Source of the DNA: a virus
Virus record (IMG/VR): IMGVR_UViG_3300051212_000523
Location: 1 to 25,999 of that record
Strand: one strand, 5' to 3'
DNA: 25,999 bases
The stretch's first letter is position 1. Every line of letters begins with the position of its first letter. The notes beneath the pieces were generated by a model. That model was not told where the DNA came from and made no database searches. It saw only the letters and a program-made list of their open reading frames with translations. This document shows positions 14,395-25,333 of this stretch, in pieces. The position numbers and the translations under genes are program-made.

Positions 14395-16257
14395 TTAAAT
14401 AAATGTACGTTCTTTTTCTGCAAACAGTTCATCTAGATTGACGACTGTTCTTTTGTTTTTTTCATATCTTGATAGGAATGGATTTTTAAGATGGTGTGTC
14501 TGATACTTACCATAGTTAAGCATCTCTCTTGCTCTAATCTCACAGAACCAAAGAGCCATTACCATATCGGTCTTACCCTTAGTCGTAGGCGACCAAGTTA
14601 TTAACTGCTCTATTAGAGCCTTAATATTTTCAGTTTGATCTGATGGTAGGTGAATTAGATTATCTCGGTGGTGCTTACCATCGTGTTGTTTAGTACCAAA
14701 TAAACTAGCCATAGATGCAACACCAAAACCTGCATCCCATTTATTACTACCGGTATGGTGCTCTTTAAACTGTACACCCTTAGATGCTAGGTGTTGTCTG
14801 ATACCTTCATCCTGAGTTAAGAAGGATTGAAATGCGTTCTTCTCAACTATCCACTCACTAGGTGAGTACAGAGATGTCCAGTCAAATATTAAATTTCTAA
14901 TAGCAGCAGGGCTAGGTCTAGTAATCTTAATAGCATCTACAATATAACGTTTACTAGTAGATCGATCTATTGCATAGCAGATAGCTGCAGTATCACCTAT
15001 CATTGCTGGGTCTAATCCACAGATATAGGTAAAGCCATTTAAATCTCTTGGGTGTCCTGGATGACCTGCGGTTAACTTACCTGCTTTACGCATACCATCT
15101 ATTGAGCCACGAACACATACCGGATCAAAGGCGGCATCATCTGAGATATCTTGTTGCTGATAAATAAGTGCCCAGGTGGAAGCATCCATAGATTGGCGCT
15201 CATTGTAAAGATTGCGCCCATTCCATCTAGGATAAAGTTTAGTTACTGGGTCCTGCTCTTTTTCCTCCTGACCATCAAATGGTTGATCAGAGGCTGGCCA
15301 TAATGTAACCCAATCATCGGGTTTATCATTAGCTTCTAATAATGCTGGCATTGCAAGGTAGGTCCAAGGGACTAGACCTGCAGGGTATCTATCAGGATTT
15401 CTAATCTCTTTGTATAGATCAACTGCGGCAACGCGGGTACCGATAATAATTAATTTACCGGTGGGGTTAAGACGGGACCGGACATCTTGAGTTAACCACT
15501 TAATCTGTCGTTCAAAATCATTAGCGTTAGATAAAGTTACCGCATCATCTACAATAATCATATCGGCACGCTTACCGTAGATCTGACCGCCAATACCAAC
15601 TGCTTCTAGGTTTGGGTCCTTTTCGCTAGACTCTCGTAACTCATCACCGAAGGTAACTCTAGTTGCTTGCCAAGAGGCGCTCTTAGATTTAAACCCAACC
15701 CCTGCAGCATAGGCAGTTTGTAACTCCTCATAGGATGGGTGGGTTAAGCGTTGTTTAATAGCATATAGAAAATCACCGGCAAGACGTTGAGTCTGGGAAA
15801 CTATTAAAACTCTAAAGTTAGGATTTTTACAAACCTGCCAAGTTACGTAATCGATTGTAATAGTCATCGACTTGGCGTGGTTAGGTGGAATATTTATCAG
15901 GATGCGATTATTGCCAATACCTGGTTCATACTTCATTGAAGGGTGTAACCAAGATGGCTGTCTACCTTCAATCACATCAACTAGGTTTTGTTGATGGGCA
16001 AAGGTCTTATTATGTAAGAAACGCTGCCTGAAGGTAGCAAAGGAAATCTCTTCAGTATCACCAGAGGCGAAGTTTTTATCCCGTAAACCTAACCTAGTTC
16101 GATCAACCTTATCAGCAAATATCTTATCGGTTCTACGGTAGTACTCGTAGGTCTTCATAGATTTACCGGCGGAGGCACAGGCTTGCTCTATTGTCATAGC
16201 CTCAGCTACACAATTTAAAATAATCCGCTTAGCAATATCTGCGGAGTTCTCAGTCAT
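14395..16257 (-). CDS. terL: Terminase large subunit (packaging ATPase/nuclease)
   Basis: The protein has 620 aa from ATG 16257, which has AAGGAG 5 nt upstream; a longer in-frame start at 16326 has no ribosome site. It cuts and pumps phage DNA into the head. Walker A-like PPNHAKSMT lies at residues 124-132, Walker B DMIIVDD at 232-238, and a coupling motif KLIIIGTR at 268-275. The RNase H-like nuclease follows with acidic residues at D416 (CGLDPAM), E472 (WIVEKNAF) and D564 (KTDMVMAL). Residues 1-60 before the ATPase contain a helix-turn-helix-like segment (TIEQACASAGKSMKTYEYYR) similar to small-terminase DNA-binding domains, and no separate terS is seen in the window. Walker A lacks the classic G-x-G-K, and Walker B ends DD, as seen in some phage terminases. 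Confidence 0.92.
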   Translation of the reverse strand: MTENSADIAKRIILNCVAEAMTIEQACASAGKSMKTYEYYRRTDKIFADKVDRTRLGLRDKNFASGDTEEISFATFRQRFLHNKTFAHQQNLVDVIEGRQPSWLHPSMKYEPGIGNNRILINIPPNHAKSMTITIDYVTWQVCKNPNFRVLIVSQTQRLAGDFLYAIKQRLTHPSYEELQTAYAAGVGFKSKSASWQATRVTFGDELRESSEKDPNLEAVGIGGQIYGKRADMIIVDDAVTLSNANDFERQIKWLTQDVRSRLNPTGKLIIIGTRVAAVDLYKEIRNPDRYPAGLVPWTYLAMPALLEANDKPDDWVTLWPASDQPFDGQEEKEQDPVTKLYPRWNGRNLYNERQSMDASTWALIYQQQDISDDAAFDPVCVRGSIDGMRKAGKLTAGHPGHPRDLNGFTYICGLDPAMIGDTAAICYAIDRSTSKRYIVDAIKITRPSPAAIRNLIFDWTSLYSPSEWIVEKNAFQSFLTQDEGIRQHLASKGVQFKEHHTGSNKWDAGFGVASMASLFGTKQHDGKHHRDNLIHLPSDQTENIKALIEQLITWSPTTKGKTDMVMALWFCEIRAREMLNYGKYQTHHLKNPFLSRYEKNKRTVVNLDELFAEKERTFI

Positions 16258-16266
16258 TAATCTCCT

Positions 16267-16287
16267 TGTGGATAAAGCTGTGGATAA
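16267..16287 (-). promoter_or_regulatory. Two perfect DnaA boxes (TTATCCACA)
   Basis: TGTGGATAA occurs at 16267-16275 and 16279-16287, the complement of the bacterial DnaA box TTATCCACA, spaced 12 bp start to start in the same orientation. They lie just upstream of the terminase ribosome site. They may recruit host DnaA to a phage origin or let DnaA repress the terminase operon. Confidence 0.6.
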
Positions 16288-16334
16288 GTGCCGGAATTGA
16301 AATCTTTTAGATTTGGTATCGGGCAAGAAGTAGG

Positions 16335-16351
16335 GGTTATCGGAGATAACC
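16335..16351. promoter_or_regulatory. Inverted repeat GGTTATC-GGA-GATAACC
   Basis: This is a perfect 7 bp dyad with a 3 bp centre, upstream of the terminase gene. The half-site GTTATC recurs at 17037-17042 and 17048-17053 near the promoter of the opposite operon, so one regulator may bind both ends of the divergent region. Confidence 0.5.
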
Positions 16352-16365
16352 TATTACACCTGCCG

Positions 16366-16490
16366 CGAAGTGTGTGTGTGCTCGGTTCGCTTTGCTCCCG
16401 AGCGAGCCTTGAAGCGAAGTGAGGGGTAAAACCTAAGCTCGCCCTATGGGGCTCGCCGAGGCTACCGCCGAGGCGGTTAGGGTCGTAAAA
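16366..16490 (+). ncRNA. GC-rich structured island, candidate small RNA
   Basis: About 125 bp are much richer in GC than the surroundings. GCTCGG (16380-16385) pairs with CCGAGC (16398-16403), while TTCGCTT in its loop (16386-16392) pairs with AAGCGAA downstream (16412-16418), an H-type pseudoknot layout. Behind it, CCTAA (16432-16436) and TTAGG close a second domain that holds GCCC/GGGC and CCGC/GCGG hairpins. A hairpin plus six T's follows at 16530-16558 on the plus strand, as at the end of a transcript. No ORF or tRNA fold fits. Alternatives are a cos/pac signal or the structured leader of the leftward terminase mRNA, since the folds work on either strand. Confidence 0.35.
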
Positions 16491-16529
16491 CTAGAGTGGG
16501 TCCGTTTTACTCCCCTACTATATATAAGG

Positions 16530-16558
16530 CAGGAAATTTAACGAATTTCCCGTTTTTT
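16530..16558 (+). terminator. Hairpin with T6, rightward terminator
   Basis: GGAAATT (16532-16538), a 5 nt loop, then AATTTCC (16544-16550) form a perfect 7 bp stem followed by CG and TTTTTT (16553-16558). The stem is AT-rich, so it is weak. No protein gene lies upstream on this strand, so it would end a short RNA made from the GC-rich island or early read-through. Confidence 0.4.
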
Positions 16559-16581
16559 GGTAAAAAATCTTTATAAATGTG

Positions 16582-16636
16582 ACCAACCTCACTAACAAAG
16601 TATATCAAAACGGACATTACGGACATCACGGTTGGT
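16582..16636. repeat. Inverted repeat ACCAACC / GGTTGGT
   Basis: The perfect 7 bp arms at 16582-16588 and 16630-16636 are 41 bp apart and enclose the inverted GTCCGTTTT and CGGACATYA repeats. This may be part of a looped nucleoprotein site. Confidence 0.35.
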
Positions 16637-16647
16637 AGATCATTATA

Positions 16648-16761
16648 GCTTCACTTTAGCAAAAATTTTTATTTGGGGTACACGGTACACACCACTACAA
16701 AATTAAGCATAGGGGGGTCCGTTTTGGCGGTGTCTGCCTATTTTGCTCTAGTAAAGTGAGC
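16648..16761. repeat. Imperfect inverted repeat around an AT-rich spacer
   Basis: GCT-TCACTTTA-GCAAAA at 16648-16664 is mirrored by TTTTGCTCTAGTAAAGTGAGC at 16741-16761, apart from a 3 bp insertion and one extra T. The arms are ~75 bp apart and frame the second GTCCGTTTT and the GGTACAC tandem. Confidence 0.4.
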
Positions 16762-16807
16762 GTAATCCGCCATAATCTAGGGAGATTATTCCCTTGTTGG
16801 TGGCTTA

Positions 16808-16835
16808 TTGATTAAGTTTATCCCTTAGTTAATAA
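16808..16835 (+). promoter_or_regulatory. Possible rightward promoter (TTGATT-16-TAATAA)
   Basis: TTGATT at 16808-16813 and TAATAA at 16830-16835 form a sigma-70-like pair with 16 bp spacing. A transcript from here would carry a ~300 nt leader with the CAGCT array. The support is weak in AT-rich DNA. Confidence 0.25.
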
Positions 16836-16907
16836 ATAATTGGTGGGCGTGCTACCCGTCAGGCACACTCTCAGCCCTATCTAATTTAATAAACTCTTTT
16901 AATCTGC

Positions 16908-16984
16908 CAGCTTTAATCCTTGCCAGCTATCACCAGCTATCGCCAGCTATCAGCTTTAAACTCTCAGCTCTCAGCTTGCCAGCT
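16908..16984. repeat. CAGCT array with 10 bp tandem repeat
   Basis: Eight CAGCT copies start at 16908, 16924, 16934, 16944, 16951, 16965, 16972 and 16980. Three of them are in a tandem of the 10 bp unit RCCAGCTATC (16922-16951), one helical turn apart, so a protein could bind in phase on one face of DNA. It lies ~160 bp upstream of the small-gene cassette. Confidence 0.6.
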
Positions 16985-17027
16985 AGCAACTCTAACCCTC
17001 TACCTTAGGTTTAGCTCAGCCAACTCT

Positions 17028-17055
17028 CAGATAATCGTTATCAAACTGTTATCTG
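17028..17055. promoter_or_regulatory. Nested TTATC/GATAA operator
   Basis: CAGATAA (17028-17034) and TTATCTG (17049-17055) are an inverted repeat. Inside it GATAA-TCG-TTATC (17030-17042) is a second dyad. The site lies just upstream of the extended -10 at 17082, over the expected -35 zone, which suits a repressor or activator that shares the half-site seen at 16335-16351. Confidence 0.5.
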
Positions 17056-17081
17056 AAATAGCTATGAAATAGGGGAGAGTG

Positions 17082-17090
17082 TGGTATTTT
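17082..17090 (+). promoter_or_regulatory. Extended -10 (TGG-TATTTT) of the small-gene cassette
   Basis: TG-N-TATTTT fits an extended -10 and the actinobacterial TANNNT pattern. No good -35 is seen 17 bp upstream (CTATGA), which suggests activator dependence. Transcription would start near 17097, in the leader hairpin. Confidence 0.4.
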
Positions 17091-17125
17091 AATCCTAGTG
17101 AGCTGAACAGCTCGCAACTAGATTA
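17090..17125 (+). promoter_or_regulatory. Leader hairpin before the first cassette gene
   Basis: GAGCTG-AA-CAGCTC (17100-17113) is the core. Outer arms CTAGT/ACTAG and TAAT/ATTA extend it, with a 1 nt and a 3 nt bulge. It is followed by TTAGATAGGA and then ATG 17140. The same hairpin + GATAGG layout precedes 17756 and 19695. Confidence 0.55.
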
Positions 17126-17139
17126 GATAGGATAAATAG

Positions 17140-23015: not shown

Positions 23016-23404
23016 AGCTCTACCCCATCCTCTAATTTAAAGAACCCTACTAGTTTACTACGCTTATGTTTGTTTTCAAACTCAGTAGTAATAGGTAGCC
23101 ATTTAGTTTCCCACTTAGGTTGAGGTATAGTTAATAGATTAAATCCCCATACACCCTCCGGTGTGGAGTTGATATACCAAGGTGTAAGAGATCTAATTCC
23201 TGCTGCCATAAGTAGACCCTGATACTTACTCTCTTCGATAAGTAGATCAGGGTAGTGGGTCTTTCGGGATTTTAACTCTATAAACATTTTGTGTTCTTTA
23301 GATATACAATCCCAGTTATCAAACTCTTCACTCTTCTCAAGGTCTGGGTAGTAATTCCCCTTGAGATACTCAAATAACTCTGGCTCTTTAAACTCTATGC
23401 CCAA
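23012..23404 (-). CDS. PD-(D/E)XK nuclease-like protein, 130 aa
   Basis: Start TTG 23404 has GGGGGTGAG upstream; no in-frame ATG is available nearby. D32 in WDCIS and E43-L-K45 in MFIELKSRK, followed by PDLLIEESKYQGLL with K60, follow the D-(x)n-ExK core of restriction-type nucleases. In this family the spacing and the following helix with Lys support catalysis of phosphodiester cleavage. The downstream part (WYINSTPEGVWGFNL) is a beta region. Possible roles are recombination, host DNA degradation or single-strand trimming. Confidence 0.55.
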   Translation of the reverse strand: MGIEFKEPELFEYLKGNYYPDLEKSEEFDNWDCISKEHKMFIELKSRKTHYPDLLIEESKYQGLLMAAGIRSLTPWYINSTPEGVWGFNLLTIPQPKWETKWLPITTEFENKHKRSKLVGFFKLEDGVEL

Positions 23405-24030
23405 GGTGTCTCACCCCCGAGCCTATCTTGTAATCTACGCAGAGCTGAGTTAGACCTACGCTCAGCCGTAGATGTAGCACATTCTAAATATTGTGCTACT
23501 TGTTGCAGTGTGTAGTTATCGTAGTATCTCATCTGCAATATGGTCTTATCCTCTTGGTTTAATTTTAGATAAGCCTTCTTAATATCAATTAGAATTGCTA
23601 ATAAATTACCACCTTCAGCCGGTGTTGATTGCTTACGAGGTGTGCCATCATTAATCATCTCTTGTGCTTGCTCTAGTACAGTACCTTCTACAACAGAGGC
23701 AATGATAAATGGAATTAATTGTGCAATAGTTGAGGTATCGTAGAACGCCTCATCACTAACTTTATATCCAGATTTACGGGCTTTTTCTCTACGGGCATAT
23801 CTTTCTGCAGCTCTTCGCATTTGATAAGCAATACGCTTCTCATTCTGCTCACGCCTTTGTGGGTTCTCTTCATTAAGTAGATCAGTAAATTGTTGCCCAC
23901 GACCTATTGCCCAGAGATAACACTCTTGCTTTACATCTTCACCATCTACCCAACCTTTAAATTTACGAACAATAAAAACAGTAACGGAGGGTACTATTTC
24001 ATAAAGAGTTGGATGCAGTTCAGGGCTCAT
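23395..24030 (-). CDS. Sigma-factor-like transcription protein, 211 aa
   Basis: The C-terminal domain (about residues 150-206, KLNQEDKTILQMRYYDNYTL, then QQVAQYLECATSTAERR) is a sigma region 4 helix-turn-helix, as in ECF sigma factors: L-x-x-x-x-K-x-I-L-x-x-R-Y, then T-x-x-x-V-A-x-x-L. The N-terminal part (VDGEDVKQECYLWAI, 27-41) resembles region 2, which binds the -10 and the polymerase beta-prime. An Arg/Lys-rich linker (ERYARREKARKSG) lies between. It probably redirects host RNA polymerase to phage promoters. ATG 24030 overlaps the preceding stop (ATGA). A repressor with only the helix-turn-helix is the alternative. Confidence 0.65.
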   Translation of the reverse strand: MSPELHPTLYEIVPSVTVFIVRKFKGWVDGEDVKQECYLWAIGRGQQFTDLLNEENPQRREQNEKRIAYQMRRAAERYARREKARKSGYKVSDEAFYDTSTIAQLIPFIIASVVEGTVLEQAQEMINDGTPRKQSTPAEGGNLLAILIDIKKAYLKLNQEDKTILQMRYYDNYTLQQVAQYLECATSTAERRSNSALRRLQDRLGGETPWA

Positions 24031-24422
24031 TCACAGTCCAACGTGGGAACCTCTGGCCATTTACCATCTAGTACCATCAGAGCAATAGCTGAATAGTTGA
24101 GTAAATCTACAAAAGAATCTCTAAGTGATTCATTAGTTGGTGCAACATTATTATCAACAAGATTATTTATGCGGGCTACCTTGTCCCACATACGAACTCT
24201 TAATCCATTGATAGGACCGCCAGGAGATCTGGCTATGTTTAATGGACCGTAATCGTGGTGCTTTGCAATAAGTAAATTACCTGCTGCATCTAATACATTC
24301 CAAACATCTTTTTCAAATTCATCATCTACTAAACCACGCTTCTTAGCACGGGCTTGGTGGTACAAATCCATAAGAGTTCCAACCATTCTGGTACTGCCAT
24401 CTGCTCTGAGTTCCTCATACAT
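24027..24422 (-). CDS. DUF1599 / nucleotide-modification-associated domain 1 protein
   Basis: The protein has 131 aa. Conserved blocks are KKRG near residue 30, KHHDYGPLNIARSPGGPING (54-73), VRMWDKVARINNLV and SLRDSFVDLLNYSAIALMVLDGKW (99-122). This helical family is found in phages and is often linked to base modification or nucleotide metabolism, with a MazG-like appearance. It follows the primase gene with an 8 nt overlap. The substrate is unknown; no partner modification enzyme other than the methyltransferase is seen. Confidence 0.7.
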   Translation of the reverse strand: MYEELRADGSTRMVGTLMDLYHQARAKKRGLVDDEFEKDVWNVLDAAGNLLIAKHHDYGPLNIARSPGGPINGLRVRMWDKVARINNLVDNNVAPTNESLRDSFVDLLNYSAIALMVLDGKWPEVPTLDCE

Positions 24423-25062
24423 TTGGCATACCTATTGTCCGTTTTGTCTCTTCTATACCCTTTGCTAAGTATAGGTCATTAAGGTCCATACCAGCAGGCA
24501 ACGACACGATAGTAGAATTGATAACCTCTTGAGATACCATCCTTGAAAACTCTGCTCCTGGATTTGTGCCATCCTCTTTTAAATCATTATCACCAATAAT
24601 ATAAACCTTGCCATAGCCAGTAAACATCCTAGTAAAATGCGGCTTCCAAGCTTGTACACCAGGAACTCCAACTGCTGGTATACCTAAAACTGCAGATGCA
24701 ATAATGGTATCTAATTCACCCTCACAAATTGCTATATATTCACTACTTAAAATGATATCGCTAACATTATATAGATGAGACTTTTGTCCCAATGGCGCAC
24801 CATACTTAGGCTTACCCTGATCTAATCTTCTAAACTTAAATCCAACACAGTGTCCCATTACAGTTATGTAGGGTATAGATAACCAGCCTTGATAATGCTC
24901 GTGATTTGCAGCAGGAGTTTCTATATAGCCTAAACTATATTGATCAGCTACCTCTTTAGAAATCCCACGATCTGCGAGAAACTCTATTGCCTGATCGTTT
25001 AGACTTTTGTTGTACTGAACTGCCGCTTCTAGCGAGGATTTCAATTGCTCTGGTGAGAGCAT
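24415..25062 (-). CDS. DNA primase, Toprim catalytic part
   Basis: The protein has 215 aa. It makes RNA primers for replication. The N-terminal helical segment (AIEFLADRGISKEVADQYSLGYIETP) is the region preceding the catalytic core in bacterial DnaG. The Toprim fold follows: E114 (IAICEGELD), VGVPGV, then D158 and D160 (YIIGDNDLKEDGTNPG) for metal binding. ATG 25062 has GGAG 7 nt upstream, so it starts on its own, within the tail of the zinc-domain gene (107 nt overlap, different frame). No helicase domain is attached; that function lies in the partial gene at the right edge. Confidence 0.85.
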   Translation of the reverse strand: MLSPEQLKSSLEAAVQYNKSLNDQAIEFLADRGISKEVADQYSLGYIETPAANHEHYQGWLSIPYITVMGHCVGFKFRRLDQGKPKYGAPLGQKSHLYNVSDIILSSEYIAICEGELDTIIASAVLGIPAVGVPGVQAWKPHFTRMFTGYGKVYIIGDNDLKEDGTNPGAEFSRMVSQEVINSTIVSLPAGMDLNDLYLAKGIEETKRTIGMPNV

Positions 25063-25333
25063 CTTTAAACTCCATATTCTCTTTAAGGCTAATAATGTTT
25101 ACTGCGTTGCCACCCTTACCGCAAGTGTGACAAAAATACAGATTCCCTTTAGTATCTATTACCGCACTTCTTCTCCTGTCATCGTGGAGTACACACCTAA
25201 CAGGAAAATTTTTACCTTCCCTTACCTCACCACCATAAAAAGAAACAATTACTCCAATAGGAATAGCATTTGCATCAGCTTTTAAACTACCTTTACTAGA
25301 TCGTTTACTTCTTGACCAATCCTGTGCCGGCAT
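24956..25333 (-). CDS. DNA primase, zinc-binding (CHC2) part
   Basis: The protein has 125 aa. C47 and H50 (CVLHDD) plus C68 and C71 (FCHTCGKGGN) form the CHC2-type zinc ribbon that recognises the template in DnaG-like primases, followed by NAVNIISLKENMEFKDAL. The last ~35 residues are basic and Ser-rich and come from the overlap with the Toprim gene. Start ATG 25333 is the first base after the previous stop. The zinc domain and the catalytic domain are therefore two polypeptides that must act together. Confidence 0.85.
   Translation of the reverse strand: MPAQDWSRSKRSSKGSLKADANAIPIGVIVSFYGGEVREGKNFPVRCVLHDDRRRSAVIDTKGNLYFCHTCGKGGNAVNIISLKENMEFKDALTRAIEILARSGSSVQQKSKRSGNRVSRRSWDF

Follow-up and report, generated by a model that had tools for sequence, protein, structure and literature searches.

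A conserved structured RNA, a probable late-mRNA leader, upstream of the terminase gene in uncultured freshwater phages

Late genes, promoter-like module and GC-rich island

The window, i.e. the whole stretch of DNA analysed, is the 25,999-base virus record IMGVR_UViG_3300051212_000523. Consecutive minus-strand genes run from 16257 down to 65, forming a late operon of roughly 16 kb, which opens with the gene for the large terminase subunit (terL) and includes those for the portal and the major capsid/head protein, among others. To the right of terL lies a divergent non-coding stretch, ending at plus-strand ORFs from 17140; a protein search with the first of these ORFs returned no relatives. 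The GC-rich island beside terL, already noticed in the original prediction, is located within this stretch, at 16366-16516, and folds strongly on the minus strand. The features of the locus are listed in Table 1.

Table 1. Features of the region between the late promoter-like module and terL, with their coordinates in the window.
Feature	Position	Strand	Description
terL	14395..16257	-	PHROG 38 terminase large subunit, E 1.6e-62; opens the late operon behind the leader RNA
Shine-Dalgarno region of terL, AAGGAGATTA	16258..16267	-	read directly
Structured RNA core	16367..16521	-	CM R1 match; transcribed part about 16367-16515, predicted start about 16515
H-type pseudoknot	16380..16418	-	S1 GCTCGG 16398-16403 / CCGAGC 16380-16385; S2 TTCGCTT 16412-16418 / AAGCGAA 16386-16392
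Linker UACCCCUC	16421..16428	-	invariant in 32 aligned relatives
Helix P2	16431..16462	-	outer arms GCCTCGGC 16455-16462 / GCTTAGGT 16431-16438, symmetric GA/GA internal loop, hairpin GCCC-CATA-GGGC 16441-16452
Hairpin CCGCCTCGGCGG	16465..16476	-	MFE fold of the window
Helix P1, transcript 5' end	16481..16513	-	GTAAAAC 16504-16510 / GTTTTAC 16485-16491 and GG 16512-16513 / CC 16481-16482
TATATATA, presumed -10 of the late promoter	16519..16526	-	only copy in the window
Palindrome CGGGAAATTCGTTAAATTTCCTG, -35 region	16530..16552	-	conserved across 122 loci; one perfect match in the window
CRP/GlxR-like site GTGAGGTTGGTCAC	16579..16592		upstream of the late promoter; GTGA-N6-TCAC unique in the window

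The RNA sits immediately downstream of a conserved promoter-like module, to which its helix P1 is adjacent, and the late operon follows on the same strand. Of 122 loci, 81 contain the exact GTGA-N6-TCAC sequence, where 0.05 would be expected, and its spacing takes two preferred values that differ by 16 bp; the late genes may answer to a CRP-family regulator, either of the host or of the phage. Judging from the position of TATATATA, transcription would start at about 16515.

Further short motifs occur in the same region. Two DnaA boxes (TTATCCACA) are found at 16267-16287, right at the ribosome site of terL. When TT[AT]T[CA]CACA is allowed, one or two boxes lie within 90 nt of terL in 34 of the 39 sequences of the window's subgroup and in 1 of 41 elsewhere (80 sequences). 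The minus strand carries GACCCCCCTATGCTTAAT at 16702-16719, and relatives, as well as Streptomyces phages of the Beephvirinae, have a similar element, resembling GACCCGGGGGTTGTTAA, upstream of the late promoter. Short direct repeats of iteron-like appearance, around GCCAGCTATC, occupy 16917-16991 of the divergent region.

Structure and covariation of the minus-strand RNA

The ability to fold was evaluated for both strands of the island (151 nt). The minus strand shows a fold z of -3.9, which none of 200 shuffles equalled, whereas the plus strand shows a z of -0.8, equalled by 40 of 200.

A covariance model, CM R1, was built from 16 relatives, leaving the window out of the seed. The model matches the minus strand of the window at 16367-16521, with 50.5 bits and an E-value of 1.3e-10, and produced 98 matches in the 99 records searched. 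The window is assigned to the family on the basis of this match, located upstream of terL and on its strand.

Within 83 distinct sequences, aligned by fitting to the model and hence with a bias toward the structure, 90.7% of the cells are paired, compared with 75.0% after shuffling and 27-41% for slid partners, and both partners have changed in 19 of 26 pairs. Because a fitted alignment favours the structure, compensatory changes were also counted on a tree obtained from terL, independent of the RNA: 63 were inferred, versus 1-6 in slid controls, a wide margin, although the alignment was still the model-fitted one. Covariation among relatives, named as a check in the original prediction, is therefore found. 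G-U combinations are present in 175 cells and A-C combinations in 8, which shows that selection operates on the minus-strand RNA.

Two other procedures were applied. A conservative column-pair covariation test with a substitution-shuffling null, performed on group B, placed a G-C/C-G pair (columns 96-110) and the P1 columns in the top four of all pairs, with E about 0.2. RNAalifold, run on an unanchored MAFFT alignment of 70 sequences, reported short helices only, because the P1 types misalign, and the covariance model was used instead.

These results also bear on the strand. A plus-strand small RNA, ended by a hairpin with T6, had originally been proposed. The T6 hairpin does exist on the plus strand, but it coincides with the conserved minus-strand promoter palindrome (16530-16552), conservation does not extend to its T run, and it has no gene upstream, on the plus strand, that it could terminate. 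Since the plus-strand z is only -0.8 and the G-U asymmetry favours the minus strand, the proposal is scarcely credible, and the element is assigned to the minus strand.

As to the single parts of the element, P1 shows double changes in all of its 9 pairs across relatives, with about 97% of the cells paired, and P2 shows them both in its outer arms and in its hairpin. The CCTAA/TTAGG pairing, formerly thought to close the second domain, is absent from the nearest relatives when these are read directly; the conserved closing helix is instead formed by GCCUCGGC (16455-16462) and GCUUAGGU (16431-16438). In the place of the CCGCCTCGGCGG hairpin, tabulation of the arm pairs of relatives revealed the alternative hairpins CATCGC/GCGATG, ACTCGC/GCGAGT and GGCCTC/GAGGCC, which compete with P2 for bases; such competition suggests that the leader may refold. 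A further candidate helix, P5 (CCCGAC/GUCGGG), would compete with P3 and suits many of the sequences, not all; it is not claimed.

The third domain is a pseudoknot only in the small subgroup to which the window belongs. Both helices of the predicted pseudoknot are there, on the minus strand, and are kept or varied in 11 distinct sequences of this subgroup, window included: S1 shows one clear double change (GCUCGG/CCGAGC to GUUCGG/CCGAAC), and S2 varies. All other relatives have a hairpin at this position, so that the pseudoknot does not extend to the family as a whole.

The earlier impression that no known RNA family is involved agrees with the searches performed. The window and 8 relatives gave no Rfam 15 match at the gathering score, and the best sub-threshold matches, at permissive thresholds, were at chance level. 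No tRNA or tmRNA was found, blastn against phage records returned only chance-level matches, of at most 38 bases, and no description of such an RNA was found in open-licence papers. A scan of a genome collection for TTACCCCTCASTTCGCT gave 22 hits in unrelated phyla, against about 60 expected by chance according to our own estimate; these were discarded as non-homologous. All together, the element is well supported as the structure of a new, previously undescribed RNA family, and would belong, for its function, to a known general kind, that of structured phage leader RNAs.

Distribution among relatives and sister clades

At least 600 relatives of the window's terL are present in viral contigs (IMG/VR), and the best 80 of these at least 600 are 84-92% identical to it. 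Nearly all relatives that extend far enough upstream share the same arrangement before terL, i.e. a CRP-like GTGA-N6-TCAC, the palindrome CGGGAAAT..ATTTCC(T/C)GCC, TATATATAGTA, GGGG, and the chain of helices. The association with terL was evaluated on 119 test loci, identified by the RNA core sequence alone, without terL. In 115 of them terL lies downstream, on the same strand, at a distance of 106-723 nt, and in the remaining 4 the contig ends within 223 nt. Three loci (L002, L047 and L049) have an additional gene, of about 150 aa, between the RNA and terL, and the RNA remains beside the promoter; the element is therefore linked to the start of the transcript rather than to the terL start codon. 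In the original prediction, a leader of the terminase mRNA was one of the options, and this is the one that holds: the RNA is on the minus strand, follows the promoter-like module, and in every case precedes terL, directly or with a small gene in between.

Scanning 17 long records with the model, exactly one copy of the RNA was found in 16, and no second copy. The exception, L061, carries an inverted 59-nt piece of the element at a contig end. In this contig (L061:1-375), the promoter and the RNA's 5' part have the reverse orientation with respect to terL, either because of a chimera or because of a real inversion.

In group C, 24 of 31 sequences have a terminator-like hairpin after the core, and in group B 9 of 68, compared with about 0.8 expected in each; none of the 33 sequences of subgroup A, window included, has one. 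A hairpin of this kind in part of the family, together with the obligate link to terL and the single copy per genome, would suit a discrete small RNA, ended by the hairpin after the core and working in trans, with the packaging motor or host factors as conceivable targets. Against it stand the lack of the hairpin in subgroup A, and thus in the window, the ribosome site of terL, with no other recognised late promoter in between, and the absence of Rfam matches to the phi29 packaging RNA (pRNA) or to any sRNA family. This explanation, which ranks after the mRNA-stabilising role described below, is improbable.

Upstream of terL, soil relatives (e.g. L361, L363, L382) show repeated hairpins, which share the loop C-UNAA-G on different stems, as well as a GGGAATCTTCTCCCCG motif; the hairpin repeats look like repeated protein-binding sites.

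The closest cultured relatives, according to terL, are ct2KA10 (46% identical) and the Streptomyces phages of Beephvirinae (42%). The ct2KA10 record corresponds to Planktophila phage LanE43AprE7, which was isolated on a 'Ca. Nanopelagicales' strain (PMC10202952). In Beephvirinae, where terL is gene 1, it is preceded by CRP-like sites, TATATATA and then a non-coding, hairpin-rich leader; in FlowerPower, TATATATA is unique in 46 kb. The leaders of the E7 clade open with a different chain of hairpins. CM R1 gave no significant match to the leaders of either clade, with a single chance-level match (E 1.7) in 78 loci; they are therefore to be considered positional analogues and not family members. 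The place before terL is the same as that of the window RNA, and in Beephvirinae so is the promoter-like anatomy, whereas the folds differ.

The FlowerPower genome end separates the late genes from the early genes, which run away from it in opposite directions. Since the window has a similarly divergent layout, its own genome end may lie in 16258-17139, upstream of the promoter, and nothing places it on the RNA. A DNA signal, namely a cos/pac site or an origin whose palindromes mimic an RNA structure, could be considered on this ground, as Beephvirinae have their genome end in the same divergent region, the island adjoins terL and two DnaA boxes mark the terL start. A packaging signal had in fact been listed in the original prediction. 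The strand asymmetry (175 G-U vs 8 A-C cells) disfavours it, as it indicates selection on RNA; the contig ends of relatives, tested as evidence for a cos site, scatter and do not coincide there, and were rejected as such; and about 380 nt separate the FlowerPower genome end from the TATATATA of its promoter, which is further downstream. A DNA signal is accordingly very improbable.

Proposed role at the head of the late operon

Comparison of the sequences establishes the RNA, its strand, its structure, its occurrence once per genome and its constant location between the promoter-like module and the late genes. On this basis, the minus strand from 16515 to about 16367 is very probably a cis-acting, structured 5' leader of the late mRNA. 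Transcription would start at about 16515, from a dedicated late promoter composed of the CRP-like site, the palindrome in the -35 region and TATATATA. Folding of the nascent RNA would be immediate, proceeding from P1 to the P2 domain and on to the third domain, pseudoknot or hairpin, while RNA polymerase still has terL and the roughly 16 kb of the late operon ahead of it. The leader would then act in cis on the expression of the whole operon, helping to switch on, or to sustain, the virion genes. Its most likely target would be the elongating RNA polymerase, which it would modify or gate in a way functionally like HK022 put or lambda nut/tR'.

An effect on RNA polymerase is favoured because the element is complex, is found at the transcript start whichever gene comes first, includes competing helices, and is followed, in part of the family, by a terminator-like hairpin; the competing helices fit attenuation. 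The known antitermination elements in Rfam gave no match, the window proteins that were scanned included no recognisable antitermination protein, and a scan of the window detected no strong minus-strand terminator in the late operon. Since subgroup A also lacks the terminator-like hairpin, no antitermination target is visible in the window. A polymerase-directed mechanism, be it processive antitermination or attenuation, is thus plausible and somewhat short of probable. The explanation as a whole, a late-promoter leader RNA acting in cis on the late operon, most likely through RNA polymerase, appears evenly balanced between being right and wrong.

The main rival explanation is that the 5'-end helix and the compact fold guard the late mRNA, which is long, against decay that depends on its 5' end, or serve to present terL to ribosomes, without any action on RNA polymerase. 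P1 begins within a few bases of the predicted start across the family, and the leader of the E7 clade also opens with a hairpin, of unrelated sequence, as expected for a stabiliser; a simple hairpin would suffice for this purpose, however, and the invariant UACCCCUC linker, the GA/GA internal loop and the competing helices exceed the needs of a 5' clamp. Such a role is rather unlikely, and a leader directed at RNA polymerase remains the preferred reading.

The put sites of HK022 (putL/putR) suppress intrinsic as well as Rho-dependent termination. They are about 70 nt long, with two stem-loops, are located in early operons of this lambdoid phage, and need no protein of their own to act on RNA polymerase in cis (PMC9378689). 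Like put, the window RNA is a structured phage RNA from the first part of a long operon, at its start or just beyond, and close behind a promoter, which in the window is a predicted one. Unlike put, it is about 150 nt long or more, has a different consensus structure, with P1, P2 and pseudoknot or hairpin domains, and leads the late genes of actinophage-like phages instead of early operons.

In phage lambda, late genes are controlled by the series pR' - 6S RNA - tR' - late operon, through protein Q at a DNA site. The leader family resembles this arrangement in having one late promoter, a leader of about 200 nt and then a long late operon, with a terminator-like hairpin in part of its members; it differs in that the RNA structure itself is conserved, and in that a terminator between leader and late genes is found in 0 of 33 sequences of subgroup A. 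The lambda nut sites and the EAR/LoaP leader RNAs are structured RNA signals, close to the beginning of operons, through which RNA polymerase becomes processive. The window RNA is likewise structured and near an operon start; no boxA/boxB or LoaP partner was identified here. The phi29 packaging RNA (Rfam Bacteriophage_pRNA) is also a structured phage RNA, and the window RNA shares with it the genetic tie to the packaging ATPase gene; it does not match the Rfam pRNA model, and its strand and promoter context fit an mRNA leader. More speculatively, and on balance unlikely, control of RNA polymerase by RNA alone, as in put, may exist here as a new class, or the RNA may serve the packaging motor without belonging to the phi29 group; each clade of a large actinophage assemblage would then have evolved a separate fold for one common task where the late transcript begins.

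Operon-head RNA elements in phages have repeatedly revealed control of transcription elongation. An undescribed, well-supported RNA family, tied one-to-one to the late operon, is here added to abundant uncultured freshwater phages. Cultured phages have the same layout, i.e. the Planktophila phages E7 and F5 and Streptomyces Beephvirinae, e.g. FlowerPower and Stella, and a late switch controlled by a leader RNA in actinophages is therefore testable at the bench.

Two more genes of the window may be mentioned. A phage sigma factor is encoded at 23395-24030 (Sigma70 region 4; PHROG 354 sigma-K), and might be the factor that reads the unusual late promoter; a sigma-K factor is encoded by FlowerPower too, as is WhiB. 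The DNA primase is contained in two overlapping frames, at 24415-25062 (zinc-finger part) and 24956-25333 (TOPRIM part), as the result of a natural split, of a frameshift or of a sequencing error.
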